Part shown: positions 23,012-60,769 of the stretch, piece by piece
Layout of the letters: each line of letters starts with the position of its first letter
How positions within the stretch are numbered: the stretch's first letter is position 1
Origin: Loxodes magnus
Taxonomy: Eukaryota; Ciliophora; Karyorelictea; Loxodida; Loxodidae
NCBI GenBank assembly: GCA_946699065.1
Contig: CAMPDV010000238.1
Coordinates: 248,001-312,000, forward strand
Direction: 5' to 3'
Length of the DNA: 64,000 nucleotides
Notes under the pieces: model-generated
Told to the model about the DNA's origin: nothing
Seen by the model: only the letters and a program-made list of their open reading frames with translations
Database searches by the model: none
Made by a program: the position numbers and the translations under genes

Positions 23012-24124
23012 TCATTTAAATTAAATTATCATAGCAATTTTAATTTAATTTTTCTTTCTTAAACTTAATTTATAGAAAGCTAAGATACTATGTAAGTATG
23101 TCTTTAAAATACTTTAAAAGCTTTTCATTGAAGAGTTTTATAAATATTATGTGATTTTAATGAATCTATTTTTGAATCTTATAATGCGTACTGTTGAATA
23201 TGATTTTTTATTAAATAAGCCAACTAAAAAATAATACTTATATTTAGGATTTCTTAATTTGAATGATGCATATTATGTAAATAATAAAAAAAATAGTCTT
23301 AGATATATATTTTTAGTTTATTTCATTAGATTTATAAATTGAAATTATAGCTTAGGAATTATATCGTAATGGCTTGAGTGTCTTATTAAAGAAAAAGACT
23401 AAAGTATAACTACAAATTTGCTTTTATATTAATTTAACATATTGTAATTACTAGAGAAATAGGATTTCTATAGCAGCTTTGACTCTTAATCTATATCCTT
23501 TCTAAAATTCATCATGAACTCGTTGTAAATTTCCGAAGTTGTATTTCCTGCGCTTTCTAATTCTTTTTACAAGGCTTAAACAGGAAAATCTTAGTACTAT
23601 TCACAGCTTATATTGACTAACTTATATTTAGGATTAGCTTCTTCATAAAATTCTCTTTTGCTATTTTTAACTGAACTTTCTTCATTAATAACAGATTATA
23701 GCTCCATACGACTTGCACTAATTACGCTTTCTAATTTGCTTTATTAAGGTTTTTCTGGTACTATTGGATTTAAAGAAGCCAGAGCTCTTAATCAAACTCC
23801 ATGTATACTCTATGATTCTGCACACAATATATATATTCGTTCAGGTGTTTCAATCATAAAAGCATAAAGTCAGTCATTAGGTTTTAACTTAATGCTTGCT
23901 GATTTATGCACTTTGGTAATTGAAGAAATTTCTATAATTTTTCTAATTTTACTAGATGATTTCCTCCTTTTATAGAAGAACATCTTCTAATCTAAATCTA
24001 ATACAAATCATCTTTGCACAAATCTTTAGAAAATTTTTCCAATAGCTCTGTTACTTTTCAATTTCTTAAGGTAACTCTAAACGACTCTAGGTCCTTAATA
24101 TGATTGGTCGACTTTATTATCCAT
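23012..24124 (-). CDS. PH-domain protein
   Basis: A pleckstrin-homology domain fills residues ~10-115: VVQSYLKKLKSNRAIGKIFQ, then QRWFVLDLDQKMFFYKRR, IEISSITKVHKS, WLYAFMIETPERIYILCAES and the hallmark Trp of the C-terminal helix in GVWLRAL. PH domains bind phosphoinositides or proteins and place the protein at membranes. The Trp codons in RWFVLD, NDWLYAF and GVWLRAL are all TGA, among the best evidence here for TGA as Trp. A Ser/Glu-rich tail follows to about 23440. The next in-frame TGA is far off (23012-23014) and the intervening residues look non-coding, so the true end is probably between 23440 and 23500. Confidence 0.8.
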
Positions 24125-24978
24125 TACTATTAATTTAAGAAATAAAAAAGGAAAAAAATGAATAGAAACCATTTTACAATAATGAAGTTATGCATATAGC
24201 TAACTTTTATCTCTAATCTTATTCCTCATAACCATTATCGTTTGTTTCTATAGCTTATCATTTCATATACTCTAAACTTCCAGTCCTATTAAATCTATTC
24301 CTTTCTTAAATTAGAAAAAGCTTATGCTCTTAGCTTAAATTAACTATCCTTAAGTTTACCAAGATAGTTATTTTTTGAACACTAGGAATAATAAAAAGAA
24401 GAGTTAAATTTAAGATTAAGAAAGAAGTGATTAGTATCACCTGAGAATTAGATTTAATTAGAGTTTTAATCTCCTCTCTTAAACAGTGAAACGATAAAAA
24501 GTAAATTAAACTTTAGAAGAATTTTATATTATAAACAATAAAAATTATGTATTATTAGCTTTAATTAGCTTTTGCTCATTCTCTTTAATCAATTGTAGAT
24601 TTTTTTATCCGTTATATTGATAAAAGTAAGCTAGCATTTTTATATACCCTTTTAACGCTTGAAATACACTATAGGTCCTGTTCTAATTTATAAAGGTTAT
24701 AAATATATGTAAAGAGCGCTTTTCTTAAAAAATTAGAATTTTGGTATTATTTTATCGAAGAGAATAATAATATGCATCTAATAAGAGAATGAGTGAGGGA
24801 TTTGGAAACTTAAAATAAAAGTATATAAGGTAAATATATAATAATAGCAATAATATTAATTTAAATGTCTAAATATGTGAAGTTACTCAATATATAAGCT
24901 TAATTTAAGTAAAGCAATATTAGTAGTTATTAATTATTTAATTAAATACTTTTACCATTAAAATTTTATTTAAACAAA
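24125..24978. other. AT-rich intergenic stretch
   Basis: Between two minus-strand genes. It includes the PH-gene promoter and the 3' flank of the Cys-rich membrane gene. Nothing else was recognised. Confidence 0.45.
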
Positions 24979-25848
24979 TCAATCGTTCTTTTGATTAAAT
25001 TGTTCTTTTCCCGCTTTTTTGTAACATACATAGCCACAGCAACAAAGACAACTTAAAAAAGAGAATATCCCAAAGAGTAAATAATACCCGCTATATTGTT
25101 CATGAAGTTAGTCAATAAATTAGAAATCGTTGAAATAAGATAGACATTAAAGCTTATTATTAGCTTTATTATGATCAAGTTGGAGTAAAACATGGCCAAA
25201 GTCATAAACTATTTGTATAGAACAGGCCTAAAATACTCACTCATCTGTATTGCTATCATTAACTTCCTTACCACAAATATGAAAAAACTATTCATTTGTA
25301 ATAAAATCTCTTATACTAGTAGTGCATCTTCCAAGATTTGAATTAGGTCCTTCAGGTTTAGGCACACATTGACATTACAATGAATTGCAATAAGAATTAT
25401 TTTTACACTCAGCTCACCCAATATGAGCTCCTTTTTTGAGATTTTTAGTTTTCTCTTCAAGATCTGAATAATATTTTTAAAAATCGCATATCTTCTAAAG
25501 GTAACCATGTCTTTATTCATTAGAGCAATATTTTTTGCACTATAGCCTCTCTTAAAGAGATTCTGGAGTGAAGTTTTAGCAAAACTTATTTTAAACATCC
25601 TACTTTATCTAATCTTAATTCTTAGTTAAATTACGCTAAATTTCCACTTTATAAGGTGCTGTCAAGTTATAAAAATTAGAAACATAGCAAATATCTGTGC
25701 TATTTTCAAATTTCTCACTTACCGTAACTGGGGAGTTAGTGTTTGTCTAATGGATACAATAATTTGAGGGTATATTCTAGTTGCATTTCCAAAAAGGACA
25801 ATCAGTGTAGGCAACAGTAAAAGCAATAAAAAGTAATAAAAATTTCAT
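24979..25848 (-). CDS. Cys-rich type I membrane protein
   Basis: A 289-aa protein with a signal peptide (MKFLLLFIAFTVAYT), an extracellular part with about twenty Cys (CPFWKCN, SNYCIH, KFCQNF, CKKYCSN, SYCNSLQCQCVPKPEG, HICGKEV, QACSIQ), and one membrane helix near the C-terminus (GYYLLFGIFSFLSCLCCCGY) followed by a short Lys-rich tail; stop TGA 24979-24981. The Cys pairs suggest a disulphide-bonded, probably surface or vacuolar, receptor-like protein. No family was recognised. Trp in IGWAEC and DEWVFQ are TGA. A decayed copy of its last exon lies at 32101-32220. Confidence 0.75.
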
Positions 25849-27134
25849 TTTAAAATAATTAAAATTCCTTAACTTCCATATAATAACTTCAACCTTATTA
25901 TCTCCTTTTATTTATTCTTTTGAAGCATTAAGTAATTTATTTTAGTGCTTACTAATTATCTCCTTCCTTCTTTTATTTAAGCTATACTTTCATACCTTAA
26001 GTTTACTATCGAGTTAAATATGTTCCTAATTAATAATTTTAGTTAATAGAGATGTTTAGCTTCTAGTTTTGCTATTGATGTAAATCTGGTTGTATAAATA
26101 TAATGCTAATATTTCTGTTTAGATAAGCAAAAGATAACTATTATTAGATTTAAGAGCTTAATAACTTCTTAATTATGATGCTTTTATTAATATGATTTGA
26201 CTAAGAGTATGAATTAAATTATAAGATTATACTTATTAGAAGCTAAATAATAGCTTATTCTATAATTAAATGATACTAGCATTAATAAAAGCTTAAAGTA
26301 TTGTTGTATAAAACTAAGATTACTTAGATATATAAAATAGCATTTAGTAGCATTGTTTACACTCATTACTATATCACTTTTATAAAGAATTTAGTTAACT
26401 AGTTAATTGATTATCTTAAGCTTAAAGCAAATCTAATTAATATAAACTACAACTAATTAAACTTAGATATTTAAACAGTATTCTTCTTCTATAGTTGGAA
26501 CTAAAATAATGAAGTTACTAGTTATAAAGATAATCAAATTAGATAGTTTCTGCATAGATTTATTAAACTACTTAGTAACTAATTACTAATATAAGCTTAA
26601 TAGCAGAATATAGTAATATGGCTATAATCCTAAATAATTAGTCTATTAATAGTTTATTATAGATAATAATAAGAATGCTTCATTTGCTATTTAGCTATAA
26701 ACTATTAGTATATTAAGCAATCATATGCTCCATTTAAACAATTAACTTTTACTTATAACTAGGAAATAGTTAAATTATATAGATATAAGAAAGTAAAAAA
26801 CATAAGCATACTAAATTCTAAATAAATATATACTAAATATAAAGCATAAAGTAGATTATAAATAATATTTTATTAACTATAAAGTATACCTAGACTTTTA
26901 AGATAGTTAAATAAATTACATGCTAATATAAATATTTTCCTTAGCTTTAAAGAATACCAGTAGGTATAAATAACTTCAAATAAATAATTAAAATATTATA
27001 GATCGCAAATTAATTGCATTATGATGTTCTCAAAATTAGATAAAGCATCACTTATTTAAAACTAAAGGATTATTATTATTAAATGCTATAAATTGTAGTT
27101 ATGAACCTTTAATCAAATAAAGTTTAAATCTTAC
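25849..27134. other. Very AT-rich stretch up to the right repeat arm
   Basis: No coding sequence, RNA or tandem repeat was recognised. Short motifs such as taatta, ttaact and aagcta recur without clear periodicity. It abuts the inner edge of the right arm at 27135. Confidence 0.45.
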
Positions 27135-27377
27135 ATAATATAATAAATTAAGTTATATTAAATATAAATATGTTTAGTATATAGGTTTAATAGAAATCAG
27201 ATATAATATACTGATTAATCAACTAGTAGCATTATTATTACAATATAATCAAATTAATAGATATCTATACTTATGCTTATGAAGACTGTTAGTGTATAAA
27301 TATTCCTTATAAGATACTTTTAGATACTTATTACTGATATCATATAAATTAGTGATTAACTAATTTAAATATACTAA

Positions 27378-28085
27378 ATGGAATCCAATGATCCTTTGCT
27401 TTTTTATGAAGTAGGTTAAGAATACGGAGAATTTTCTAATTTTTATCCATCTAAGATTGTTTTAAAAGAGAAAGAATGACCTACAGTTGAGCATTATTTC
27501 CAAGCTATGAAATTTGAAAATACTCCTTAAGAAGAAAATATTAGGTTATGCAAAAGCCCAATGGATGTTAAGCGTATGGGCAATACTAGAAAGTTTCCTC
27601 TTAGGTAAGATTGAGAGTCTGTTAAATATGAAATAATGAAGTAAGGACTTTATGCAAAATTTACACAACTTAAGGATTTAAAATAAGTACTTCTTGGAAC
27701 TGGAAATAGATTACTAGTAGAACATACTACAAACGATAAGGAATGGGCTGATGGAGGTGATGGGTCAGGAAAAAATTTACTAGGAAAAGCCTTAATGGAA
27801 GTTAGAGAAATTATCAGGAAAGAAGAAGCAGAAAAAGTAGCAGTAACGAATGTTCAATAAGTTACTAAATAAAAACTAAATAATTTTAAAATTTCTAGTC
27901 ATCTAAATCCTTGTATATTCAAAACTTCTTTTAAAAGTCTAAAATATAAACTAATTTAAAGAAATAAGAGCATATAAATAATAAAGTCATAATAGTAGAA
28001 TACTTTTTATATCTTTTTTGTAATTTCATCAATTTTTACCTTAAATTATAACTTACTAGTTAGATTATATAACTTAATATCTTGA
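27378..28085 (+). CDS. NADAR (YbiA-like) domain protein, right-arm copy
   Basis: Matches the left-arm NADAR gene (10608-11315) at every position compared, in opposite orientation. The NADAR core covers residues ~1-160, with GEFSNFYPSKIV and PTVEHYFQAMKFENTP. At 27477-27479 the codon before PTVEHYF is TGA, whereas the third copy has TGG (57947-57949), a direct sign that TGA means Trp. The position homologous to the third copy's TGA stop has no TGA here, so the frame runs on to TGA 28083-28085 and a 235-aa product. Either these copies have a longer tail or a UAR codon ends them. Confidence 0.85.
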
Positions 28086-28688
28086 ATTTTGTTTCAATAT
28101 AGTTTAATTAATTATTAATAATTATGAATGCATTTTAAGATGGTTTTTCATCAGTAAAGCTTTTAATTATGTCTGTTAATTTATAGACATTTCAATTTGT
28201 AGTAATATAATTATCTTTATTTAAACTTTTTATTTATAATTTTAACTTTAATCTCTAGATATTTGTATTAGAAAGTAAATTTGAAGGAATCAACTATTAG
28301 ACAATCTATAGAGTTGATAACTTTCTCTGTTTTCATTAAATACTTTTTAATAATTCAAAATTTTAAAACTCTACTACTCTGCAGTTTTAAATAAGTCTAT
28401 TATTTAAATATTTCAATAGCCATTTAATTAGCTTACTTGATTAAGCTATCTTAAAAACTTCAATCAATTGTTTTAGGAAGATATTTCCCTTAGTCTCTTA
28501 GTTTATTTTATATGTACAATAACATAATAATGGTTGGTATGGTTACATTTATTGTTAGAGTGAGATAGAATTTAATGAATTAGAGATGAATTAGCTTTTT
28601 AAATCTTAAGGATATATTTTATTGACTTGCAAATAAAGGAAATTACTTTATTGATATAGTAGAATTCTTTTGCTAAATAGTAATTTAA

Positions 28689-29045
28689 TCATTTTTATTT
28701 CTTTAAAAGCATGTAATTTAATGAGATTTGGTGTAAAGCATATATTTAACAAATGTCAGACTCAATTACATATTTAGGCTTTTTAATTTCCCTTTTCTTG
28801 TCTTTTAGCAAACTCTTAATTACTCAATCTTCATAAGCCTCTTGCTTTGTTTCCCTGTTGGCAATTACTGAGATTTGTTTTTCGTTTTCTATAAATTTAA
28901 TCATTTTTTGTATTTTATTCTAAATTACTATTTTTTACTCTTTTACTTCATACTCTTCTTTAACTATTACTTCTGCTTCCAAACTTACCAAGTTTGTCTG
29001 CTCAACTAAATCTTTGATAATATCTTAGAATTAGCTTTGGTCCAT
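28689..29045 (-). CDS. Hypothetical 118-aa protein, right-arm copy
   Basis: The inverted twin of the gene at 9648-10004, with the same start (MDQSQFQD) and TGA stop. Preservation of a clean reading in both arms is expected from their near-identity and is not independent evidence. It is convergent with NADAR copy 2. No family was recognised. Confidence 0.6.
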
Positions 29046-30021
29046 TATTATTAAACTAAGATGTAACTATACGTAATTTAGTAAGCCAAGTATTGAATGA
29101 TTTAATAAAGGTATCAGAGGGTTAAATTCTAACTAAAGCAATCGAATATAAAGTTGACTATACTATTAAATTATTTGATTATATTATATTGCTTATATGC
29201 ATATAAGTAAACTTCAGTATATTAAGCTTATTGCTAATTATTATCCTTTATCTCTTTTATTTTAGAATCTCTTTGTATTGTCTCTATATAGTTTTCCTTA
29301 CAGTGGCTATCTTATTTGTAGCTAAGTAGGGATATAAATGCTTACATTACTATTAAAGTTAGTCTTAGTTTTGATAATAATAAAGAGTTAGACTTTTATG
29401 ACTTTAGTTTGTAGGTTCATTACTAAAGTTATATTAACCTAATATTTATTAGCAAGCATGTATCATGTTGTTTAAGCTAGCTACATAGAATCAGGTATTT
29501 TATACTTTTATTCCTTAGGACTTTAAATTATTTGATTAAGCAAAGTTCGTAAGTTTAGTTACTAATCATATGGTACTCTCCAAGTAACTTTTGATGCATT
29601 AGTATCTTAATAAATAAGTTTCCTTATAAGAGATAGTTAGTATAGTGATAGATTTAGCAGTAGTGCTTATAGTTCCTTATAAAGCAATAAGGTTTATTAT
29701 TAATTAGCATTTAAAGTATATTTGTACTTGTATAAATCTTAATAAATGCTTAAAAGTCTTATTATTTCTAAAGCATCATAGACTATTTAAGAAGCAGATA
29801 GAAGCTAGCTATCTGCTAGAGTTAATGCCTAAATGGTTTCTTTATTAGTTATATTTTACTTTTCATATTGATATTCATTTCTTTCTTGCAAAATAAGTAT
29901 CAAGATAATTAAGTTTAAGGTAGCAAATAGCTAGTAATATAGTTATAAATGTACTAGTATAATACCATTAGAATATGTACTTATATAGCTTATACTCTCT
30001 ATTTCCCCAACTATATAAAAA

Positions 30022-30267
30022 GCAGATTGCTAAACAGTTTATTTACAATAACTTCCATATAAAGACAGAGTAGCTTATATTCAAAATTACTTTGCTATAA
30101 GAGACAAAGATTTCCCTGTTTATAAGCAACTTGCTTAAAGATATAAAGCAATTGAAGTGATTTCTAAATAACCAAGCAGCTATAGTTAATTAGTTAGATA
30201 TTAAGAGATTAGAATGAAAATTTAAATAATTACAGTATTTACTAAATATATTAAGGGAATACTATGA
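30022..30267 (+). CDS. Candidate small ORF upstream of B56 copy 2
   Basis: Twin of the reading at 8426-8671. Protein-like segment DRVAYIQNYFAIRDKDFPVY; its TGA (30265-30267) overlaps the B56 start as ATGA. No start codon was found. It may instead be upstream untranslated sequence. Confidence 0.3.
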
Positions 30268-31809
30268 AAATCAATTAAAAACAAACTGCCTAATTACCTA
30301 CTTAGAATACTACCTAAAAAAATACCAAATAATAAGAAAAAGACAATTAGAACAAAGATATTATAACTTCTTAAAGTTAAGATATAGAATCTGAATCTTA
30401 AACTAATGAAACTAATAATATTCCAAATCCCCCAGATTAAAAAGATATTTTTATAAAAAATCTTCAGATTGTGCAACAAGTTTTTGATTATAGTGATGAA
30501 TAAAAGGATGTTTAACTAAAGGCTGAAAGATTAACTGCTCTTTAAGAGTTATTGGACTTTATTGCGGATTCTAAAAATGTGTCATTGTATTGCATTCCTC
30601 ATTTAAATCTTGTTATGGAAACGATTTCTAAAAATATTTTCAGAACAATTCCTCTTAAAAAAGATAAAATGGAAAAGATATGTGAAGAAGGTATTTATAA
30701 TTAAGAGTACAATGTAGTTGATCCTGCTTGGCCACATTTATAAGGAGTTTATGAATTTTTCTTAAAAGTAATAGAAAATGAAACTGTTGATGTCAAATCA
30801 CTTAAAGTTTTTGTGACTCCAAGTTTTATATAAGAATTTCTCTAACTATTTGACAGTGAAGAATCAAACGAAAGAGACTATTTAAAGAATATACTTCATA
30901 AACTTTATGCTAAATTAGTTCCCAGAAGAAAAATGATTAGAAAAGCTATTAATGACTGCTTCTACGCTCTTATTCATGAAACTGGTCATTTTAATGGAAC
31001 ATCAGAATTGTTAGATATTCTGGCAAGTATTATATCTGGATTTTCAATGCCTTATAGATAAGAAAATATAATTTTTTTTAGAACAGTAATAATTCCTCTT
31101 CACAAGCTATAAACTAGTCATATATTTCACGAATAATTATTACGTTGCTCTATGCTTTTCCTTTCTAAAGATCACTCTTTAGCAATTCCTCTTGTAGAAG
31201 GTATACTTCGTTACTGGCCTTTTGCTAATTCTTCTTTAGAATCAAAGATTTTGGGTGAATTGAAAGAAGTTTTAGAAGTATGTGAACTACCTTAACTTGA
31301 ACCACTTATTCCAAAGTTATTTTAACGTTTAATTAAATGTGTTACAGGCCCTTAACATTAAATAGCTGATAGAGCTTTAGACTTTTTTGATAGTGATTAT
31401 TTTCTTCTTATTTTGAGAACATATAAAGCAATGACTTTTCATATAATAGTACCTGTAATATGTGAGATGGCTGATACTCATTGGCATAAAATTTACTGGG
31501 AATCTTTGAATACCATAAAAGCAATTCTTAGAGAAATTGATTCAACTACTTTCGATCAAATTTTAAACCAAGAACCTAAAAATGTATCAAAGCTAAATAG
31601 TTTAAATTGTATGTATGAAACTCCTTAATATCAAAAATCATAAGATAGTTGGAATATATTTTTCAAGCAAATTTAGAAATAAGATCCTAATTTTGTTCCT
31701 CCAGTCGGTAAGCTTTTATATAGTTCCATATATGGATACAAATGTTGTTGAATTTAATAACATGAACAGCATGCCTATAGCAAATCCAAGCTTAAAAATT
31801 CCTATTTGA
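30264..31809 (+). CDS. PP2A regulatory subunit B56 (B'), copy 2
   Basis: A full-length B56 paralogue of copy 1, about 509 aa. Same order of family motifs: WPHLQGVYEFFLK, VTPSFIQEFLQLFDSEE, LHKLYAKLVPRRKMIRKAI, LIHETGHFNGTSELLDILAS and PKLFQRLIKCVTGPQH. A 16-nt intron (31708-31723) has the same sequence and position as in copy 1; the stop TGA is 31807-31809 after KIPI. The codons up to about 30339 are in the inverted repeat; downstream the gene differs from copy 1 throughout, including the N-terminal tail just past the junction (KDNQNKDIITSQSQ here, SSNQANRTRASEST in copy 1). At 31650-31652 TGG stands where copy 1 has TGA. Confidence 0.93.
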
Positions 31810-33200
31810 GCGGTTCATTTTAGGTTTCGTCAATTTTTAGATTATCCAATTTATTTATCTTTTCTATTTTCTATATATTACAGGGTTTTCTCATTTCTTC
31901 AAGATTTTGCTTTCTTCCTTGAATCAAACTTATAAAAATAGTTTTAATTAAGTTTAAAAAGAAGACTTGAAGAATTATAGAAGTAGGTAAAGGAGAAAAG
32001 ACTGAATTTAATAGGCTTATTAGATGCTTTATAGAAAAAGATGGTTAGAAATAGTTAACGATATTCCTTTAAGCATATCAATCTATCTTATTCATATCTC
32101 GTTCTTTTGCAACATACTTAACCGCAATAAATTAAGTAAAAAGAGAATATACTAAAGTGAAAATAAACTACCTATATTGCTCATGGAGTAAGTTAGTAAA
32201 TTAAAAATCGTTGTAAAAATATGCAGTAAGTATATATACATAAAAAGGAAAGACTAAACCATACATTTATCCATTCTCAGTAAATTAGATTATATAATTT
32301 TAAACTATCTCCAAAGAATGCAATTTCATTATGAAATTATATAAAATTTTAGTTTATATTTTAGATTTTATTCTGAAGTTTAAGTAAATTTCTTTTTATT
32401 AGAATTTTGTAAATTAGTATTTTGGTAATTAATAGCAGTTGATTAGCTTAAAAAGTATGCATAAAAGGGATAAATAGTAAATTAGAACCATAATCAAATA
32501 AAATCTCTAGCTAATACACATCATATACTGGATTAAATATATTTTAGCTAGAATACTTATTGATTTATATTAGCATATTATTATTCCCAATCTAAGCGTT
32601 TAATTCTTTTTAAGTCTTTAATTATTAAGATATTGTTATATACTTAAATTTCAAAACAAATGCTTTTTACATGCCATACCTCTAATTCATTTAATCAAAT
32701 ACACAAAGCAGTTGCATTCTTCTTAAGCTAATAATCTGGCAAAGAGCACTACTAATTTACTTAAAAAAGTATAATTATCTTTCAGTTAATATAGGTTAGT
32801 TGATATATCTCTTATCTATCATATTGTTGAACTAGAGTATTAAAGGATATTGATAACTTATTTATTATTAAAGCTATTATTCTCAAAAACCATTAAGTCT
32901 ATAAATGTATGCTATTAAAGCTTAAAGGAATGAAAATAAGTAGAAATATATAGTAAGAAAGTGATTTATATAATAAATAAGCTCATTATAACAAAGGCTA
33001 ATTATCTTTGCTTTTATATTCTAAGCAAACTAAGGTTAACTAGATAATCAAGTAGTGCTTTATAAAGGTTGAACTAACTTACTTACTAAATATGTTATTA
33101 CAATCATATTGCATTATAAAATGGAACTATTTTAAAGATAACTGTATTATAAAAGCTTTAAAAATATAAATATTTAAACTAATAATAAAACAAAAGTGAA
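31810..33200. other. Intergenic stretch with one gene relic
   Basis: Apart from the decayed fragment at 32101-32220, no coding sequence was recognised. No similarity to the flank of B56 copy 1 was seen, so the inverted duplication does not extend past the B56 gene. Confidence 0.45.
32101..32220 (-). pseudogene. Decayed 3' fragment of the Cys-rich membrane protein gene
   Basis: Similar to about 25010-25140, the end of the Cys-rich type I membrane gene. The shared reading NDFQF..LLHEQY (intact gene NDFQFIDQLHEQY) is followed by a degraded membrane segment with most Cys lost and several indels. No upstream exon or signal peptide is present. It is on the same strand as the intact gene but outside the inverted repeat, so it came from a separate partial duplication. 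Confidence 0.6.
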
Positions 33201-36545: not shown

Positions 36546-37989
36546 ATGGGTTCTTGCTGCAAATTTAGAAGCAGAAAAAAAAACGTATTAATTAGCTAAA
36601 AGCTAGGACAAAATAGCAATTGCACAGTGTGTGGAGCCACTTTTCGTAAAGGTTCAAGTACATTTGAGTTTAGTGAGCATGTTTCTGCCTGCTTTACTAA
36701 GGTAGATTAGCTATAATCTAATAGACTTTAGTTTGATTAAGAGGAATTACCTGTAGGTGAAAGCTAAGAAAATATGAAAGATTAAAAATTGAAAAACTTG
36801 AAAACTGAAAAAGAGAAAAAGCTACATTAAAAGTAGAAAATATAGCAATTTCATCTTAAATGTGATAGTGTTCGTGTTCCCTTTACTAAATCTTGAGAAG
36901 TCTTAAAAATCAGAAGAGATCAATTTTGGTAAAACTCTATTGAAATGTTTGGATGGATGAACTCAGATGATCTCCACTAAGAATTAAAAGTAGAATTTCT
37001 AAATGAAGTTGCCCATGATGCTGGTGGAGTTGCTAGAGAATGGTTTACTTTATTGATGAAAAAGTTATTCGATAAGTAATAAGATATGTTCGAGATCACA
37101 GAAAGACAAATTGGTTATTATGGTATAACCACTAAATTTTAATAGTCTCAAATAACAGAAACAATTCTAAACAACTATTTATTCGCTGGCAAAGTAATAG
37201 GAAAAGCTTTATTTGACAGAATACCAATCAAATGCCCATTTAACTATGTAATATTTAAGCAGATGTGTAAAGGAATTGGTGCTATTTCATTTGATGATTT
37301 GAAACATGTGTAGCCTAGCTTACATTTAGCTCTTTCATCCATTTTAACTACTGATCCCTCTATATTGCAGTAAAATTTTACAACAATTCATAATGGCATT
37401 GAAATTGAGTTAAAGGAAGATGGGGAAAATATTCGATTAAGTGAAGATAATAAAGAAGAGTATTTGAATCTAATGGCAGAGTTTATTTTGAAGAAATAGA
37501 TTTAAAAACAGCTATAAAGCTTACTGGATGGCTTTTGAACAGTAATTCCCATTAATTTATTGATAAGTCTAGAACCTGAAGATCTTCGGTTAGCTCTTTG
37601 CGGTCTTCAAAATATTGATGTAAATGATTGGTAGAGTCATACTTAATATAAAGGAGAATATAATGCGAATCATTAAGTAATAAAGTGATTTTGAGAATAT
37701 TGCCATAATAATTAAAAAAAATTGGAAAGGCTATTATAATTTTGCACTGGTAGCAACAGAGTACCTTTTTAAGGTTTCAAGTAATACTTAATATAGGCAT
37801 TTAGAAAGTAGCAGAGGATAAATTTAGTTATTTACTATTTAATCAGTAGAGTTTAAATAGGGAAAATTACCTGTTGCACATACGTGTTTTAATAGATTAG
37901 ACTTACCAGTCTACACACAAAAAAAATACCTTGAGAAGGCTTTCAACACAGCTTTAGAATCCCAAATTACAGGGTTTAGTTTAGAGTGA
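36546..37989 (+). CDS. HECT-type E3 ubiquitin ligase
   Basis: A 475-aa protein. The N-terminus MGSCCKF could be myristoylated and palmitoylated. A Cys-His cluster follows (CTVCGATFRKGS... FSEHVSAC), then a Lys/Gln-rich coil. The HECT domain fills residues ~115-475: EVAHDAGGVAREWFTLLMKK, GKVIGKALFDRIPIKCPF, WFWEYC, LLQFCTGSNRVPFQGF and the active-site region AHTCFNRLDLPVY with the catalytic Cys, ending at the usual place (ITGFSLE, TGA 37987-37989). HECT ligases take ubiquitin from an E2 onto this Cys before passing it to substrate. A 16-nt intron (37781-37796, gtaatacttaatatag) is needed to join VPFQGFK to the catalytic segment. The WW/C2 modules of Nedd4 types are missing. Confidence 0.94.
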
Positions 37990-45308: not shown

Positions 45309-45912
45309 TATTCTCAAATCAGTTTAGCATCTTTCTACTACATCGAGAATTGAAACATTTTTAAAGATATTCTAAATTATTATGTTAAGATAGCTAGAGA
45401 ATAAAGTTTCGTTTTTTAGATCAATTTTCTAATACAAAAATTCAGAATAAATTTATGATTTAAAACTTCTTTTTTAACTGATAAAGCAACTAAAATAATC
45501 CAAAACTAGGAGGATAGAAGATTATATAAATTAGAATCAATTATATCAGTAAAAGGCAATAAAAACCACCGGCTAGGAAAAATAGCCAATTTTTATAAAA
45601 ATAAAAGAGCATAGTAAAAGCATTTTAAAAAGTAAGCATTAATACCATAAGTTACTAAATTACTAAAATGAATCCAATTTTTAATTTTTCTTCACTTCTT
45701 TGATTGCTTTATTTATCAGGATACGCTTGAAATTCTTTCAACTTTTATTGAAAATTTACAAGAGACATGCTAATAATAATCCTGCAGCTTTATGTAAAAA
45801 TTAGTAAGGAATGCTTAGAAAGGTGGCTATTTTAAATTTTGGTTAATACAATAGACGAGAGTTAAAATTATAGTTTAATATTTAATAGTAAATAAAGAAA
45901 ATTCAGCTATGA
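45301..45912 (+). CDS. Basic hypothetical protein
   Basis: A 203-aa reading from MLDILKSVQHLSTTSRIETF to IQQQIKKIQL, stop TGA 45910-45912. Very basic, Gln/Lys-rich, with one hydrophobic stretch (FQFFFTSLIALFIRIRLKFF). The stop overlaps the ATG of the methyltransferase by ATGA, and the start overlaps the formal end of the large upstream gene. No family was recognised; it may be a chance reading. Confidence 0.35.
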
Positions 45913-46731
45913 AGATGTAAAGAATTATTAGATACTTTACTAAATCTGTTTCTGTCAATTAACTATGAGAAAGCGTTTAGAAAGTATAGCAAGTCAAATA
46001 GCTTATTCCTGAGAATAACGAAATAGATGAAAAATACTTTAACTATGTGAGAGATTCTGTAGTGTATTAAAAGCTTACTTTTCCTTCTATTATGTCTAGT
46101 TTAGATAAAATAAAAGGGCTTGTATTTGCTGAATTTGGATGTGGTGACTCTCCACTAGGAACTTTGGTTGCTTAATAAGGAGCAAAGAAAGTTTATGCAA
46201 TTGATTATGATCAAAAAATCTTGGAATTCTTGGATGGCAAAATATCTAAACTTGGACTTAGAGGAATTTTTGAGTTGATTCGTGCTGATGTTTTTTGATG
46301 AAAACTGAAGCCTTCCTTAAAAAGTAGATGTAGCCCTTGTAGTATAATTATTGACTAGCATTATTAGCAATTAGCATCAACTAGTTAAACTTCTTCAAAA
46401 ACTAAAGCATTAGATAAAACCTCATGGCCAATTAATTGTATGTGATATGGCTTTTTACTAGTGCGAAGTCGATTAATGTAGATGTGTAGCCAAATAATTG
46501 CCAGTTTAACCCTTTGATGTTTACTCTTTCTTCTTTGAAAGCACCGAAGTTTCCTGCTACAACATTCCAAGTGAAAATGTGGTTAAAGCATTATAATAAG
46601 CAGGTTACTAAAATATATAACTAATAAGGCCAAAAGCGGCAAAGGGATATGAAAAAAACTAAGAGATACTTGAATATTTAAATAGTAAAGATTTTGACGA
46701 GTATATTATAAAAGCTGAGTGTGATTATTGA
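45909..46731 (+). CDS. Class I SAM-dependent methyltransferase with apparent +1 frameshift
   Basis: A 273-aa product if one T is skipped. A short leader (MKMQRIIRYFTKSVSV) precedes the SAM-binding motif I in VFAEFGCGDSPLGTLVAQQG, then VYAIDYD, the acidic residue that binds the ribose. The frame breaks in a T6 run (46291-46296): frame 0 meets TGATGA at once, while skipping one T gives DVFDENWSLPQKVDVALVV. Later come IKPHGQLIVCDMAFYQ and YEKNQEILEYLN, ending at TGA 46729-46731. The substrate is not evident. TGA is Trp in NQLWES and DENWSL. The gene may be intact in nature (sequence error or programmed shift) or be a young pseudogene. Confidence 0.7.
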
Positions 46732-47968: not shown

Positions 47969-48310
47969 ATGGATATTTTTCAAGATTTTTCCAAGCAAAA
48001 ATTTTAAGATGAATAGAACTTTAAAGGTTTGATTTATAGAGTTACAAACACAGTAATTATCAAATATATTGATAAGTTTTAAATGCTTTCTTAATTTTCA
48101 TCGATTTATCATGAAAGTCACATCTAGCAAAAAATATTCTGGATTAAAGTAAATATTAGAGAAAGGTAAGCATATGCAAGTTAATTATATTCTTTAATGG
48201 ATAGTGATTATAGTTAGATTTAATACTTAGTAAACATTAAATTGCTTTGGCTATATTATAGACTTTAGAATAAAAGCATGGTAGTTAGTGAATGCTTTGA
48301 TGGAATATGA
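47969..48310 (+). CDS. Small protein convergent with V-ATPase subunit a
   Basis: A 113-aa reading, MDIFQDFSKQKFQDEQNFKG to VVSECFDGI, TGA 48308-48310, only 40 bases from the end of the convergent V-ATPase gene. It contains KGLIYRVTNTVIIKYIDKFQ and VNIKLLWLYYRLQNKSM. A 15-base GT..AG segment (gtaagcatatgcaag) lies inside in frame and may be an intron. It could be the last exon of the candidate gene starting at 46849. No family was recognised. Confidence 0.4.
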
Positions 48311-48350
48311 AATAGAGATTGTTATTAATTGATTGAAATTTAAGAATTTT

Positions 48351-50866
48351 TCAAGTAGATAGTTTTTCAAAGGAGAAAGGAGTAAATTTAATTCCATCAG
48401 CTTTGTAGAATTTATTCTAAAACTCCACCCTGTATAAATTACTTACCAGTGGAGACGAAGTGCATGTAAGAAGCACTCCATAGCATCCATACACATAAGA
48501 ACTCCTAAAGTAGCATTTATGAAAATAAAGAATCCAGCAATTAGAAGTACAGGATTGTCTTATTCAATTACTTCTCTTATACATTTGTCGAAAAACACTT
48601 CGGCCAGCTCTGCATGTGCGAGACTTAGAGCCCACAGACGCAAATAAGATGCAGTATTTGAAATTGTTCCTAGCACATATTCAATGGTTTCAATCATTTA
48701 ATGAATCCAGACTTCTCCAGCTGAATGCTGATCATCTTCTTCTTCATGCTCTTGATTTTATTTTTTAACTCCATGTAATTCAATTTTTTATTCTTCTTCC
48801 TATCCCGGTATTTATTCTAATCCTTCATCAGGTAGAAGTTGATTTCTCATTATGTTGTGTTTCTTTTTCAACGTATTCAAAGTAATGCAAGGCTTGAAAA
48901 TTAGCATAACAGGGACACACAGAACAGCAATTATAAAGAATGCCTATTCTATAGATTCTTGCTCAGACCCATCACCCCATAAAGGATCATCAACTTTTCC
49001 CAAGCTCATCGTCATATCAACTAGTGTTTGAATTAAATTGGGTGCCTATTTATTATCTCCAATCCAATCTACAGTCCATTTGTAAACGATCATGAAATCC
49101 ATATAAATGAATAGAGTACTCATAAAGATAAGCTGAGGAATAAATTCAAAAATAAAGTCTAAGGGCTTTCTGAAGTAGATTGCGTTCAAACCCTTTATTA
49201 ACACTCCAATAGTCATCTAACCTACTCCTAAAATAACGGAAACCTTCATCTTATAAGAATTGAAAAATACCAGTTTATTATCAGCCAAAAACCAGAACGG
49301 ATCCATACCAAATGGATAAACATCTGTTTAGACATATTCTGCTTTACCTTCGTCTAATTTCCAATTAGTACCAAAAAGATCAATAGGAATTGACATGCAA
49401 TCGTTATAGATGAATCCATTGTAAATAGCAAATAAGGACATCATTAAAATAAGATATCTTGCTTTTATCCAATCTTTCAAAGGATGATCTTTAGTGCTAA
49501 GAATAGAGTTCTTTCCTACAACAATGTATAAAGCAAAACAGAAGAGAAGAAGACCATGACCAATGTCTCCAAACATTACTCCAAATAGGAATGGGAAGGT
49601 AACAATTGTAAATAGAGTTGGATTAGCTTCTCCGTAGTTTGCAATACCATAAGTTTCAACTAGTTCTTAAAATGGCCATATAAACTCGTTAACTTCAAAG
49701 TGGGTGGGAGGTTTCATGTCATTTGACATTAATTGCTTGTCCTTAAATTCTCTCAGTTAGCCAGTTGGTAGTTTAGGATAGAGTTTTACTAAGTTTTAAA
49801 GCTTTAGATCTATTTCCATTTTTTTGCTTGTTGGACACCAGCAATCTCCATAGAAAATATGATTCCTTGACTAGAACATATTGAGATTGTGGTAAATGCA
49901 TTTTTCCTTCTAGATGAACCATTTATACTCAAATAGAATACTATGGCCATCCTTTTTACCAAAGCGATTATCTTTCAAGCTGTATAAAATGTTTTCAATT
50001 CTGTCCTTGGTCTTTTTCAATACGTCTGAAGATTGCTTAAGCTCCGATTTTATTTTTTCAAGTTATTCTCCATAGGCATTTCTATCAACTTCATGTCTTT
50101 TAACTCCACCAGATTCAGTAATTTTCCTTAGTTTTTACCTTAAAGTATCAAGCTCTCCAACTTCAAAGAAAATAATGAAAACATCTTTATAAACTTCTTG
50201 ACCAGTAAATGGATCTTCCATAGGCTTATCTACATCCTTAAAGAGTGTCAACGCGTTACCTCTGCTAGCCCTAAAAATCATTCTTTTGAATCTTTCTTTT
50301 TCTTCACGTTGAACAACTCCTGTCAAATAGTCCCATCCTGAACTCTGGTAAAACTCTCTATCTAGAAGTTCTCGTCTAATGTCTTCGTTTCCTTACTATC
50401 TAGCAAGGTGAGCAGACAGATATTCTTATGTATGATAAAGAACTCTCTTCAATTCTTTAAGATTGTTGTGACGCTCTTGTAGTTGCTCATATATTTTCAT
50501 CTGATTAATAAGTTCAACTTCTTTTTCTTGTAGCTCTCTTTCGACTTCTTCAATATATGTATTTGGAGGTTAATCTCTATTTCTTAAAACGTTATCAATA
50601 GATTCTCTATATTATTAGTATGATCCTTCTTCTGGAATAATATGGAACCTTTACATTTCTGATTCAAAAAATCTCAACCTTCTCTCTGCTTCATCACATC
50701 TTTTTAAGTAAGGAGCATGCTCTCTATTGAAAATAGTCACGTTTGCATTAAGATCTACAAATTGGCAACTTGACAAATGTCCAATTTCATTCATTATAAC
50801 ATAGGCAGACTCAGCAGGCATCATCAAGTTGTAATAGCCCATCTCTTCAGATCGGAATATACCCAT
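48351..50866 (-). CDS. V-type proton ATPase 116 kDa subunit a
   Basis: An 832-aa protein, full length for the family. The cytosolic N-terminal half ([39 protein letters not shown]) is followed by the membrane half with about eight helices ([39 protein letters not shown]). The segment [19 protein letters not shown] holds the essential Arg of the proton path. A 17-nt intron (48430-48446) splits the conserved end [15 protein letters not shown], and TGA 48351-48353 follows [10 protein letters not shown] exactly where the family ends. The subunit forms the two proton half-channels of the Vo sector in vacuolar membranes. All thirteen Trp codons I placed are TGG, unlike most genes here, suggesting selection for high expression. 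Confidence 0.97.
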
Positions 50867-53757: not shown

Positions 53758-53970
53758 TATTTTCTAGTAATTAAACTAAAAGCTAGTAAATAAACCTTTA
53801 TATAATAATATAAAAATTGATAGATGAATAAAATTAAAATGATTAGATTCATATACTTATAGATAGTCTAATTAATTGGGTTTTTACATTTTCTATGTGT
53901 AATTTTAAATTAGCTGTTTTCTTATTTTTTATACTATAAAATGCTTTAAATTAAATATTAAGTATAATTA

Positions 53971-56139
53971 TACTGTTCCTATTAACTTCATATAATTTTG
54001 ACTGTCTGCCTTTATTTTTTTGACTAAGCTTTAAGCTATTTTTATTATCTAACCTTATACTTTCTTTTCCCATTCATAATCAAGATTTCTATAAAAACTG
54101 ATTTGTGATAATTAATATAATTGGTGAGATATACCGTCAAAATTTTTACTAATGCTGGTTTGGTAGTTCCCTTTTGCTATATCGAGTTAAATCATTTTAT
54201 GATCAGCTGGGTGTCTACCAAGTATGCATAATGTTTTGACAATTTAGTTTTGTAGAATAGTACCAAATATTTTAAGATTTTCCTGCTGTTAGTTACTTAT
54301 ATCATTTGATATTTTGCACTTTTTTGGTTTCAAACAAATCTTTCCAACAAACTACTTAGTAAAAAGGAAAAAGATTAGCTTCATTTAATTCAGAGCAGTA
54401 TCGCTCTTTATACTACTGATTCTGCTGTTTTCGAAGGCTGATCAATATTCTAGTGGAATTTCAACGTTCTAATCAAAAAGGATCTAATTACAGAATATCT
54501 TTAAAGGTATGAATAAACTCTCTTCTGATAACTAGTTTTCAACAAATTCAAAATTTTTGAGGAAATTAACTATTCAAGTTTGAACTATCTCTTGATATTA
54601 TTATTAACTATATGACAGAATAGACTAATCCTAAATATTCTAGTCACTTTGGAGATTTAGAATTTAGCTTATACTAATATTTCAATCTAAGACTTATTTA
54701 ATAAGAGTCTTATGAATTTTGCAAAGTCATCGAACTGCAATGATTTCGTGAAAATAGATAATTTTAAACAAGTTTTATTTCTCCAAGCACATCTTAAGAG
54801 ATTATTAAATGCTTTGCTTTATTTCTTTAGATTACTTAAGTAAAGCTTATTTCTTCTTCATTTACTTTTGAAGAGCTTTTTCTTATTCTTGTGCTTCTAA
54901 TAATTTTTATTATTGCTCACTTCATTATAATGACTATTCTATTTTTTTCTTCTCATGTAGTTATATCAGAATACTGGGGGATCTTAATCCTTTTTAACTT
55001 TAAGTAATAAAGGATTCATTATTTTCTATAGGCTATAGTTTAAAGCTTCTTTATTATCACTCATTTTATTAATTATTATCTGATCTATTACTTTGAACAA
55101 ATGAACAATTATTTAATAGAGATGTAGGTAAAAAGCTTTAAGAATTCTTTATATTTACTTGTTAATTTTCTAGACTTGGTGAAAAACTTTTCCTCCTATT
55201 CTCCTCACTAATAAGTTAAATTTAATTTGAGTGAGATATTAAAGATTTATTAGGCTTGCTCACTTTAATTTTTGTCTTAGTATTAAAAATTAAAGGAGAT
55301 TCTTCTTCGTTTTCTTCATTAATGCTATTAGCATTTAGCATAGCGTCTTCTTCTTGATGTCCTAAATTATTGTTTATAAGGTTTTTAGGTCTAAAAGGAT
55401 CAATATATTGCTGCTTAAATTAATTTAGCAATTAAAAAAGCTCGCTACTTTAATCTCATGCTTAAGTCTTCTTTATTTATTTCTTTATTCTGCTTTACTT
55501 TGTTAATACGAACTTTTTATTAATCTTTTTAGATTTTTTTTTAAAAGAGATTTGATCTTAACTCGCATTTTAACTTATATAGCAAGATTTTGTCATTCTG
55601 CTATGTTTGGAATCTAAGAGAGTATTTACTTAGTTAGAATTATGAGATAAATTTAAGATTTCATTTCCTTGTTTATATGAACCAGTTCCTAGTAATAAAT
55701 CCTAATCATGACGTTAAAGATTCTTTTTCTTTATTTTTAAAAAAATAATTTTGTTATTTAAGCCTTATTTGGATTGCTCTACGAATAGATTTTTCTTTTG
55801 ATTACAATTTATTATTTCTTAAGGATCTATTTACTTTTACATGCTAGTATTTAAACTTTTGACAAATATATGTGGAAGTGATTCATACTGGTCTCTGGTT
55901 TATGTTGGTGGTAAAGAAATTTTAAAGCTATTCTAAAATGGCATCTAATGATCTTAAGTTTAACTAAAATTGAAGTTGTCTGATTTATTGATTAATCTTC
56001 TTTAATTTATATTTTTTGAAAAATTTACTTTTTGCTTTTTATCAAATGAAAGTACTCTTACTATTGGTTGGCTTTCCTTCTTGATTAAAAGAGCATCGAT
56101 TTTTTATAAAGGTCTATTTTCACTTACTGCATATTTCAT
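53971..56139 (-). CDS. Long Lys/Gln-rich protein of unknown function
   Basis: About 720 residues, starting MKYAVSENRPLQKIDALLIK. The first half is disordered (Ser/Asn/Lys/Gln), with PPTQTRDQYESLPHIFV and an acidic patch (NEENEEESPLIF). A coiled coil follows (EQQQKLLEAQEQEKALQK, KKKQALLKQSKEIKQSI), then a folded C-terminal region (IVNFLKNFEFVENQLSEES, PLEYWSAFENSRISSIKSD, KTLCILGRHPADHKM, NYQTSISKNFDGISHQL). In-frame TGAs at 55456, 55057 and 54727 must be Trp for this reading. No TGA ends it before the zinc-finger gene at 53757; the end given is a TAA position chosen where protein-like sequence stops. Confidence 0.55.
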
Positions 56140-57847
56140 TTTATATTACTGAATCTTTAGTTAAAATCACGTATAAATAAGCTCAAACTTATACTAATTG
56201 CATGCTCCTTATTTTTATTATTAAAACTATTTATTTATTATAGAGTATATAATACTAAATCTATTAGCTGCTTAAGATTGTTACTGATCAAACTTTTACT
56301 CTTTACTTGCTAAACTTCAAAACTATATTGATGTTAATTGCTCGACTGTCTATTCAGCAGATTATTTCTTTCTTAATATAAAAGCAATAGAATAATTATA
56401 TCTCAGTCATACATAAACAGGAAATTGGTATTATATAATAGACACAATATTTAAGCATACTAATCTAATAAATTTATTGCTAGTTCATATTTCTATGATT
56501 AGCTCTATATTCCTTTATCTCTCAATTCTCTTTTATTTATAGTTAAATATATATTTACTCCATTTTCTCTTATATTTATGCTATAAAAAATTAAATTTAC
56601 GTTCGTTTGCTTGTTTAATTATTTTCTAATTTCCTTTTCATTTAAACACTAGATAGAAATATCTAAAAGCTAAGTAATTATTATAGAAAAGGGTTTATTC
56701 AAAACATCCTAAAATTCTTAATTTATAATTTCTGGTTTCTATACTTTTAAGGCTTAAGCTAGATATAAAATAATACCCAATACATATATTAGTATCAATA
56801 TATATCTAGATTCCAATAATTACTCAGCTATCTCTTTATAAAACCATTTACCAAAGAGTCATATATAGGAAATTAAGACATTTACTAGTATATAGCCCTT
56901 AGTCATTAGCATACTGAAATAATCTTAAAGGTTTATTTATTTAAATTAAAGCTTATACTAAACAAGATATTTATTGCTTAACTCTAGTAAGCTAGTTTAT
57001 TTTAGTCCTTATATCAATTTTAAGCTATTTAATGTTAATAAATGTTTCTTATATAGAAAGGAGATCTATTTTAACTCTCATATTATTAACTCTAAGGTTA
57101 AATTTTATTATTGCTTATCAACTAAAAAATCTTAGCCCACAGTATTTATTAGAAATCCTAAAATATTTAATTTCATTAAGTTTGATAAACAATAGTTTAA
57201 TGATTTAACTAAGTTACTAGTATAAATGCTAGTAGTTAGCTACCAAAAGTTAATTCTAAGAAAAGCTATTTCCTTGCCATAATATAATAGACTGCTTATT
57301 CTTCTCCTCTAATTAACTAGAAGACAGTTATAAAAGTTAAGATAATTGAATAGCTAGTTGTTAGGTATTATCTACAATATTAAATAGCTATTTACATTAG
57401 ATAAAAACTCTTTACTTTACCTTGCTTATCTTCTTAATTTTATATGATATGAGTTTAAGGAGCACTAATATACTAGATTAGCCTCTTTCATAATTATAAT
57501 ATTCTATTATTAAAATAGATTATAAACTTTTAATTTATTAGTTTATAGCTAACTTAATCATAGTTTAATGGCTATTTCATATAATACCCTATTTTAATTA
57601 TCCTCTACTTGTATGAAATAGGATAAATATACTTCTATTATAATAGTATGATGCTTTTATAAGGAGAATCATTTTAATAGAAATCATGCTTTAGTTACTG
57701 ATAGTTTGTTAAATTGAACTAGAAAGTAACTTATTTAGTAATGGGTATATCAAGCTATCTCAGAAGATGCTATTATATAGCATATGCTTTACTTTGTTTT
57801 CTGGCATATGGGTGTATATTAAAACAGTCAGTTTGGTTATAATTATA
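56140..57847. other. AT-rich intergenic stretch between divergent genes
   Basis: Promoter regions for the long Lys/Gln-rich gene (-) and NADAR copy 3 (+). Nothing else recognised. The 5' flank of NADAR copy 3 does not resemble that of the repeat-arm copies. Confidence 0.45.
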
Positions 57848-58342
57848 ATGGAATCAAACACTCCTATTCTATTTTATGGAAAAAAGGATGATTATGGAGA
57901 GTTTTCTAATTTTTATCCGTCTAAGATTGTTATGAAAGGTAAAGAATGGCCTACTGTTGAACACTATTTTCAAGCTATGAAATATGAAAATACTCCTTAG
58001 GAAGAATAAGTTAGATTATGTAAAAAGCCTGGAGATGCTAAGCGTATGGGTAAAAATACGAAATTTACTCGCAGATCAGATTGATAGAGTATTAAGTATG
58101 ATGTAATGAAGTAAGGGCTTTATGCTAAGTTTACTCAATTTAATGACTTTAAGTAATTACTACTTGGAACTGGAAATAGATAAATAGTAGAGCATAGTGA
58201 AAACGATAATGAATGGGCTGACGGAGGTGATGGATCAGGATAAAATTTATTAGGAAAAGCAATAATGGAAGTGAGAGAAATCATTAGATAAGAGGAAGAA
58301 AAAAAAGCCACAAGTGCTCAATAAGTTAGCAACTAAAGTTGA
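57848..58342 (+). CDS. NADAR (YbiA-like) domain protein, third copy
   Basis: A 164-aa, compact NADAR protein, the standard size for the family. Motifs: YGEFSNFYPSKIVMKGKEW, PTVEHYFQAMKYENTPQEE, CKKPGDAKRMGKNTKFTRR, then S-D-Trp with TGA (58082-58084), GLYAKFTQFNDFKQLLLGTG and NEWADGGDGSGQNLLGKAI. The ATG at 57848 is chosen because the arm copies start at the same residue (MESN). The stop TGA 58340-58342 follows QVSNQS. Clearly diverged from the arm copies at both DNA and protein level, so it is an older duplicate or the ancestor. Confidence 0.9.
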
Positions 58343-59724
58343 AAAATACCAGATGTTTCTTAATATAATATATTATTAAAAAGCAAAGCTTCTTTATTTA
58401 ATCCATAATCTAATTAAATATAGTATCTTCTTATATATCCAGAAAGATTGATAATTGATAACTAATGTTTTCTACATATTATAATGGATATATAAATTAA
58501 GTCTAAATTAAAATAGGTAGCAGATTATATTCTATTTATAATGGATAAATGCTTCATTAATTAAGAAATAAGCAATCTTCCAAGAAAATAGAACGTTAGC
58601 TTTCTTACAATAATAAAAAATAGTCATTTTACTTATCCATAGTGTATAAGAATGATTGCTACAGTCAATCATTATAATTTCAAAAGTGCTTTTATTAGCT
58701 GCTATTAACTTTTAAAACTCTTTTTAGATAATTCTCTGATTAGATTTACAATACTTATCTTATACTAAGTTTCTAGTTTTTAAATAAAGAGCTTATATTA
58801 AGGAAGCTTAAGCTATATGATTTAATTATAAAAGTTAGCTTCTTTAAAGATTTATACTAATTTGAAGGTAACTAAAAGGCTTTAAAGTTTGCTACTATCT
58901 TCTAAATAATATAGAGCTAAATAGGATTTTTAGTATAAATCAAGTTTCACTTATAAAAAGCCTTAATTTTGAATTCTACTAGTTTAAGCTTGAGAAAGAT
59001 AGTAAGTTTGCTGATAATTGAAAATCATAGTCTAATAAATTTTTTGTCTAAGTTTCTTATATATCTTAATGGTCTTTAAAAAAGAAGTATGATTAATTAA
59101 CTAAAGCTAACTTTTACCAAGGGTATTTAATCTAACAATGGAGATGATAAAAGAAACGAAATTTAAAGGTTTAAGACTTTTAATCAATTCGAGGATAACT
59201 ATTGCTAAATTATTTTGCTAGAAAGACTAAAAATAATTTAAATTCTAAGGTATGAAGAAACGAACAAATTTACATATATACTTAGAGAATTAAAACAATC
59301 AACTCTATTAATAAAATCCTAAAGAGTGAAATTAACAAAAGATATATTAAAAGAGTGTTATTTTATTGCTAAGATAAAAATATTATGATGCTATAACCTA
59401 ACTGTATTCCTTTATTTATAAGAGCATCTTTATAATCGAATAGATTTAATAGAATACAGAAATAATAGGTTTAAAATCTTAGACACAACAGGATAAATAT
59501 AGTGAGAGTTTAGATGTAAGAGTAAGTAGGTAGAAATAGTTAGTAGTAATAATTTATTTTATTAATTATTTAGTTTATTGCACATATGACGAAAATCATT
59601 TGAATTGCTGTTTAGAAATTAATAACTTACTTTTGGATTAATTATCGCTATTTTTGGTTAAATAATTCCTGTCTAAGAAATTTTCTACAGTCTAAAGTTT
59701 AAAATAATTACTTAACTTCCTGGT
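58343..59724. other. AT-rich intergenic stretch between convergent genes
   Basis: No gene recognised. If the CK1 gene is read without correcting its A8 run, its frame stays open deep into this stretch with no TGA, but the residues look random. Confidence 0.4.
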
Positions 59725-60769
59725 TCAGGAACTATTGCTATTGCGTTGGCATCTAGTTGCTTCTGCTCCTCTATATTCCTGGCTTTTTATTAATTAAGTT
59801 TTGGTTTCTTTCTTGTTTTTTTTCTTCAAATGGTATTTTCTTTAGAAGTTATTTTTGTTCATTACTACTTTAGCGAGAATTCACTTGATTCAAAATGGTT
59901 CAATCAAAAATGGAATCATATTATTATCCTTCTCTTATAAATAAATCTTTAAACATTCTTTTCAGGTAAGAATAATCTGGAAAATCTTCGAAGCGAAGAC
60001 TTTTACAGTAATTAATGTAAGTGCTAAACTCTGGAGGTAAGTTTTTGCATAGGATTTCTACCGGAGTGTTTGCCTTCTTTTCCATAATTTTTTCATATTT
60101 TCGTTTTTTGCTATTTCCGGGTAATCCTTACCAAGGAAGACTTCCTCTTAAAAAATACAAAAGAACATATCCTATTGACTCTAAGTCATCTCGTCTTGAT
60201 TACTCTATTCCCAAATGAGTATTGATAGAAGCATATCTTGCTGTTCCAGTAAGGCTCTTGCCTTCTTTATAGGGTATGTGTTATTGAGTTTTGGAATCGC
60301 GATATTTTTTAGCAAGTCCAAAGTCAATAATGTGAATTAAATTTTACTTTTAATTCAAACCTATCAAGAAATTGTCTGGCTTAACGTCTCTATGAAGGAA
60401 GCATTTTGCATGGATAAATTCGATTCTTGAAATCATTTAATCAGCACACATTAAGGTAGTTTTGAGTGTAAATTTTCTTTAGCAGAAATTGAAAAGATCT
60501 TCTAAAGAAGGTCCTAGCAGATCAATTACCATTATATTATAATCTCCTTCAACTCCATATCAATGAATTTTCGGAATTCCCACTCCTCCCTAGAAAATCC
60601 TATAAAGCTTGCACTCATATAACAATTGAGGAAACTTAGCTTTACTAGATTCCAACTTCACCGCTACATTCTCATTCGTCGCAACATTTACAGCTAAGTA
60701 AATATCTCCAAAAGAGCCATCTCCTATCTTTTTAACAATCTTTCATTTATTTCCCACACGAAGCTCCAT
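59725..60769 (-). CDS. Casein kinase 1 family protein kinase
   Basis: Starts [20 protein letters not shown] with the Gly-rich loop, then VAVKLESS (catalytic Lys), [33 protein letters not shown] (catalytic loop), [12 protein letters not shown] (in place of the usual DFG context of other kinases), [15 protein letters not shown] and [20 protein letters not shown], all CK1 hallmarks. Trp in PKIHWYG and FDWTILN, conserved in CK1, are TGA. The basic tail breaks in an A8 run (T run 59816-59823 on the plus strand). Using seven A gives [17 protein letters not shown]... ending at TGA 59725-59727; other run lengths open other frames. CK1 enzymes phosphorylate acidic or primed Ser/Thr sites. Confidence 0.92.

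Follow-up and report, generated by a model that had tools for sequence, protein, structure and literature searches.

In the karyorelict ciliates Loxodes magnus and Parduczia sp., UAA and UAG are read as glutamine, while UGA is read as tryptophan within genes and as a stop at their ends; tiny introns (mode 17 bases) and AT-rich DNA after the stop go with this code (PMC11441545, PMC4967479). In L. magnus, UGA is the sole stop and also a tryptophan codon, introns are mostly 16–25 bases long with a negligible share under 16, and the GC content is 33.5% in coding sequence (CDS) and 18.6% in 3' untranslated regions (3'-UTRs) (PMC11441545). Related arrangements have been described in the heterotrich Condylostoma magnum, in which all 64 codons can be sense, UGA is tryptophan and all three standard stop codons also terminate (PMC4967479), and in the syndinean dinoflagellate Amoebophrya sp. 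ex Karlodinium veneficum, in which UAA and UAG (UAR) independently became glutamine and UGA is tryptophan as well as the apparent sole stop (PMC6394959, PMC12005148). Herein, we compare these systems with the code used in a stretch of 64,000 nucleotides, analysed at its full length and referred to as the window. A preliminary description of its positions 23012–60769 had proposed that all three standard stop codons are sense codons and that UGA is both tryptophan and stop.

Very probably, the window comes from the nuclear genome of a karyorelict ciliate that uses the known karyorelict code, Loxodes or a relative being the likeliest source. In this reading, UAA and UAG are glutamine, and UGA is tryptophan internally and a stop at the gene end; the tiny introns and the AT-rich DNA after the stop are shared with the karyorelicts as well. 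The sequence establishes that all three codons are sense, that UAA is glutamine, that UGA is tryptophan and that three genes whose ends are fixed by homologues end at TGA. The code is genuine yet already published, the karyorelict nuclear code being NCBI table 27; the code of C. magnum is table 28. The code and its position-dependent stop being in print, the value of the result is mainly in annotation: the letters alone show that the contig very probably uses the ambiguous karyorelict code. Since all ten counted genes carry in-frame TAA, gene callers using the standard code would break each one of them, and the introns of 16–17 bases also mask some true ends. A further point of value is a natural change from TGA to TAA at one presumed stop.

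An iterative codon-usage scan, in which the three stop codons were scored as neutral, gave 16 coding stretches. With TAA, TAG and TGA all translated as X, Pfam recognised V-ATPase a, HECT, B56 and protein kinase in four of ten stretches; NADAR, RRM, PH and TPR were recognised when TAA and TAG were read as glutamine and TGA as tryptophan. For a blind tally, six proteins (V-ATPase a, HECT, casein kinase 1 (CK1), B56 copy 2, NADAR copy 3 and a U1A-like protein) were aligned by HMMER with sequences of solved structures, all three codons again being read as X, with one best match per protein and 2061 columns. As family duplicates, B56 copy 1 and NADAR copies 1 and 2 did not enter the tally. The PH protein was kept out because its PDB match was weak (E 0.043) and shifted at the second TGA, and its Pfam score was used instead. 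TGA faced tryptophan in five of the seven columns (background tryptophan 1.4%, binomial P 1.1e-8), and none of the seven faced cysteine. TAA faced glutamine in 20 of 71 columns (P 5.9e-12), with two further TAA codons opposite gaps. Among the 29 columns in which the subject has tryptophan, the query has TGG at 15 and TGA at five. Family alignments of this kind, which the preliminary description had put forward as a check, came out in favour of its assignments for TGA and TAA. The TGA codons that it had placed on hallmark tryptophans were all located (Table 1), namely those in RwFVL and GVwLRAL of the PH domain, IHwYG and FDwTIL of CK1, and the Cache-type CKNPwYSP, the gene of the last lying outside positions 23012–60769.

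The assignments were also scored against Pfam profiles. Out of ten readings of TGA, tryptophan scored best in both PH (41.3 bits, followed by tyrosine with 37.4) and NADAR (138.5 bits, against 134.3 for tyrosine). For TAA in V-ATPase, glutamine was the best of ten readings with 797.6 bits, 7.5 bits above lysine (790.1) and 7.9 bits above glutamate. From these comparisons, UAA as glutamine and UGA as tryptophan are well supported. The score sums for TAG over V-ATPase, HECT, B56 copy 1 and RRM were 1482.6 for glutamine, 1478.4 for arginine, 1476.9 for lysine, 1475.7 for glutamate and 1466.1 for X, so that glutamine leads arginine by 4.2 bits over the four Pfam families. In single families, arginine stood above glutamine by 0.1 bit (HECT) and 0.2 bit (B56). 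Tyrosine, leucine, serine, tryptophan and asparagine, scored for V-ATPase and HECT only, were all below glutamine. The spliced tails add one TAG at glutamine in V-ATPase and two TAG codons at other residues in HECT. UAG is clearly sense and glutamine is its best reading, but a weak assignment and the least firm part of the code.

In the ten gene models (two of them partial), TAA occurred in every one and was the commonest glutamine codon (158 of 301). Sense TGA made up 14 of 3765 codons, or 0.37%, compared with the 0.120% reported for Parduczia sp.; the value from our gene set is biased upward, because PH and CK1 were included for the TGA already noticed in them. Two other codes share UGA as tryptophan. 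In Blepharisma, UAR is a stop, whereas UAA is sense here; in the Blastocrithidia code, UAR is glutamate, whereas glutamine is favoured for TAA here.

Paralogues within the window allow the same codons to be compared between copies. B56 copy 1 has a single sense TGA, to which a TGG corresponds in copy 2. NADAR copy 1 has two sense TGA codons; copy 3 has TGG opposite the one at 11214-11216 and TGA opposite the other. Between paralogues, TAG and TAA replace each other at three sites in B56 and at one in NADAR. The ratio of nonsynonymous to synonymous substitution (dN/dS) under the karyorelict code was 0.41 for B56 and 0.32 for NADAR. These genes lie in an inverted segmental duplication (6866-11570 and 27123-31818), each arm of which holds NADAR and then B56. 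The part with NADAR and the spacer comprises 3217 bases with 11 mismatches, five of them within the first 12 bases at the start of the match; in the B56 part, identity is about 85%, in a patchwork with identical blocks, and both B56 copies carry an identical 16-base intron. A near-identical NADAR part next to a patchwork B56 part suggests gene conversion or an assembly effect.

Gene ends were modelled by a gene finder that allowed GT-AG introns of 15–30 bases and TGA as the only stop, which gave 17 models. Given that only TGA was allowed, the TGA end of a model that has no homologue is not evidence. The ends of three genes, HECT, V-ATPase a and the U1A/U2B''-like gene, are fixed by homologues, and all three are TGA, none being at TAA or TAG. 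The spliced HECT tail reaches the last residue of a SMURF2 chain and is followed by TGA. The alignment of the spliced V-ATPase tail with two plant a3 chains extends to residue 813 of 821 in one and to residue 818 of 823 in the other. For the U1A-like protein, the alignment runs to residue 279 of 282, and two residues remain before the TGA, at the family end. The HECT and V-ATPase ends were reached only after excision of a 16-base and a 17-base GT-AG intron, respectively. Besides these, the B56 intron lies at the same site in both copies, with a TGA end at the matching place in each, and an intron of 17 bases in the Cache-like gene comes from the gene finder only; gene-finder introns in homologue-free models (16, 16, 16 and 17 bases) were left unused. 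Among the exact TGA ends named in the preliminary description, those of V-ATPase a, HECT (after intron removal) and RRM were borne out, and NADAR copy 3 has a TGA end without homologue support. Eight models begin with ATG and end with TGA, no other stop being open to the gene finder. Their last 20 codons (160 codons altogether) contain four TAA, two TAG and no TGA, close to the 6.7, 2.4 and 0.6 expected from the overall rates.

A published model holds that proximity to the mRNA end makes a sense UGA a stop (Swart et al. 2016, PMC4967479). Following that model, the tryptophan tRNA would outcompete the release factor eRF1 at an internal UGA, and eRF1 would win at a UGA near the mRNA 3' end and the poly(A) tail. 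Position and not local sequence would then decide what UGA means.

The base composition was compared with that of L. magnus. The window is AT-rich (GC 23–29% in 4 kb steps). CDS GC was 33.6% for V-ATPase and 27–33% for the other nine models, and the 60 bases downstream of the eight modelled stops, a putative UTR, had a GC of 15–25%. We infer a karyorelict origin from the introns, the base composition and the code. With its introns of 16–17 bases, its GC contrasts and UAA as the commonest glutamine codon, the window resembles Loxodes more closely than it does Amoebophrya or those heterotrichs whose introns have been published. The preliminary description had placed the organism near karyorelictids or Condylostoma; that placement stands, the karyorelict side being favoured by TGA at all three fixed ends and introns of 16–17 bases, though it overlooked Amoebophrya, which has the same code and is disfavoured by codon usage and gene structure.

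Several observations weigh against reading the window with the karyorelict code. Two of the seven aligned TGA codons are off tryptophan, at threonine in HECT and at phenylalanine in CK1 (tyrosine in human CK1). TAG faced glutamine in just two of 17 columns (P 0.15, not significant alone), so that the earlier claim of glutamine for both codons stood for TAA and was less firm than implied for TAG. TAA sites that are non-silent, with a residue other than glutamine in the other copy, numbered 11 of 31 in B56 and 9 of 12 in NADAR; the corresponding TAG sites were two of seven and one of two. The TGA ends of NADAR copies 1 and 3 and of the 14.6 kb frame were built in by the gene finder, and no stop was located for CK1, PH and the Cache-like gene. 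The taxon is assigned from introns, GC and code rather than from a tree; ARAGORN found no tRNA in the 64,000 nucleotides, and Rfam found no rRNA there and nothing at the gathering threshold. Finally, NADAR copy 2 has TAA at the place of the presumed TGA stop of the near-identical copy 1.

This TAA could mean that near mRNA ends UAA has kept part of its stop meaning or is acquiring it again, which would place the code between those of karyorelicts and Condylostoma. We regard this as unlikely. NADAR copies 1 and 3 have TAA 2 to 6 codons ahead of their TGA (in copy 3, two and six codons upstream of a TGA just past the domain), and L. magnus reportedly depletes UAA, besides UGA, ahead of stops (PMC11441545). 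The TAA of copy 2 is a single case that may reflect a pseudogene or a sequence error, and copy 2 could read through 71 codons to the next TGA.

An origin from a syndinean dinoflagellate like Amoebophrya is improbable. Its code is identical, its published genome is AT-biased, and UAA is the commonest glutamine codon in three of its dynein genes (PMC6394959, PMC12005148). However, CAA is its commonest glutamine codon overall (an estimate, possibly confounded according to its author), as opposed to TAA here, and in-frame stops occur in only about half of the annotated sequences, as opposed to TAA in all ten of our models. Its genes are multi-exon with longer 3'-UTRs, the MAKER genes averaging 2063 bp, 2.6 exons and 331 amino acids; by arithmetic, these averages would leave hundreds of bases per intron.

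We consider it just as improbable that the window belongs to a heterotrich such as Condylostoma, where each of the three codons serves as sense and as stop. The window likewise uses each of them as a sense codon and UGA as tryptophan, NADAR copy 2 offers one ambiguous case of TAA at a presumed stop, and the gene finder was blind to TAA and TAG stops. The homologue-fixed ends, however, are TGA in three of three cases, and the introns here (two of 17 bases, two of 16 and none of 15) contrast with those of the published heterotrichs, about 95% of which are 15 bases and the remainder 16, Condylostoma not being among those compared (PMC11441545). A standard code, or one with only UAR as glutamine, in which the internal TGA codons mark pseudogenes, assembly errors or selenocysteine, is very improbable: sense TGA is scarce (14 of 3765 codons, and zero in V-ATPase) and near-identical paralogues might include dead copies, but TGA falls on conserved tryptophans with no cysteine among the seven aligned, TGA and TGG are swapped between paralogues with dN/dS values below 1, and the frames remain open with homology flanking the TGA codons on both sides.

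Table 1. Modelled genes and frames in the window. X, match obtained with all stop codons read as X; w in a motif, tryptophan encoded by TGA.
Feature	Coordinates	Strand	Match	Intron	Sense TGA	End
V-ATPase a subunit (832 codons)	48351..50866	-	Pfam V_ATPase_I 3.5e-231 (X)	48430-48446 (17 bases)	none	stop TGA 48351-48353
HECT E3 ligase	36546..37989	+	Pfam HECT 1.9e-52 (X)	37781-37796 (16 bases)	36894 (outside aligned part), 37536 (at T), 37686 and 37692 (both at W)	stop TGA 37987-37989
Casein kinase 1	59720..60769	-	PDB casein kinase I-like 3sv0, 9.1e-144 (X)		60743-60745 (F/Y column), 60560-60562 (W; IHwYG), 59900-59902 (W; FDwTIL)	
PP2A B56 regulatory subunit copy 1	6875..8429	-	Pfam B56 1.7e-124	6961-6976 (16 bases)	7032-7034	stop TGA 6875-6877
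PP2A B56 regulatory subunit copy 2	30264..31809	+	Pfam B56 7.2e-103 (X)	31708-31723 (16 bases)	none	stop TGA 31807-31809
NADAR copy 1	10821..11315	-	Pfam NADAR 3.1e-40		11214-11216, 11079-11081	presumed stop TGA 10821-10823, without homologue support
NADAR copy 2	27378..27872	+	near-identical to copy 1			TAA 27870-27872 at presumed stop site
NADAR copy 3	57848..58342	+	PDB 2b3w 8e-37 (X)		58082-58084 (at W of E. coli YbiA)	presumed stop TGA 58340-58342
U1A/U2B''-like two-RRM protein	13568..14179	+	PDB 3pgw 1.9e-39 (X)			stop TGA 14177-14179; TAG at conserved Gln 11 codons upstream
PH-domain protein (part)	23402..24130	-	Pfam PH 2.4e-10		24008-24010 (RwFVL), 23870-23872, 23792-23794 (GVwLRAL)	
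Cache-like and TPR protein (part)	112..1797	-	TPR_2 8.5e-7	1692-1708 (17 bases)	1661-1663, 1625-1627 (CKNPwYSP), 1601-1603, 485-487	cut by window edge; both ends uncertain
Gln-rich reading frame	14614..15555	+	codon-usage scans			gene-finder end at TGA

The coordinates of the modelled features are listed in Table 1. The U1A/U2B''-like RRM gene lies outside positions 23012–60769. The protein at the window edge combines Cache-like motifs, a membrane-like stretch and TPR repeats, with three TGA codons in the Cache-like part; this part is called Cache-like by its motif only, and Pfam gave no Cache match to the protein. A second intron of 20 bases that the gene finder placed in this gene was not believed. 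The Gln-rich frame contains 25 TAA, 14 TAG and no sense TGA, and had no Pfam match. Three weak matches were disregarded: a methyltransferase-like one at 45588-46592 on the plus strand (Methyltransf_25, E 0.003, short of the curated cut-off), one to CCDC32 at 25.0–26.2 kb (E 0.004) and one to EpoR (E 0.001). When relatives of CK1 and V-ATPase a were sought in viral contigs, four and one stretches, respectively, fitted the peptide pattern and none was confirmed.

Past FDwTIL, the CK1 frame continues for 319 codons without an in-frame TGA (58943-59899, minus strand), well beyond the coding signal. The true end of CK1 may need another tiny intron or another stop; one candidate, possible though unproved, is a 19-base intron that would bring the frame to a TGA. 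V-ATPase a, with 17 TAA, eight TAG and 13 TGG codons, has no sense TGA at all, compared with several TGA-encoded tryptophans in CK1, HECT and PH, and some genes may avoid sense UGA.

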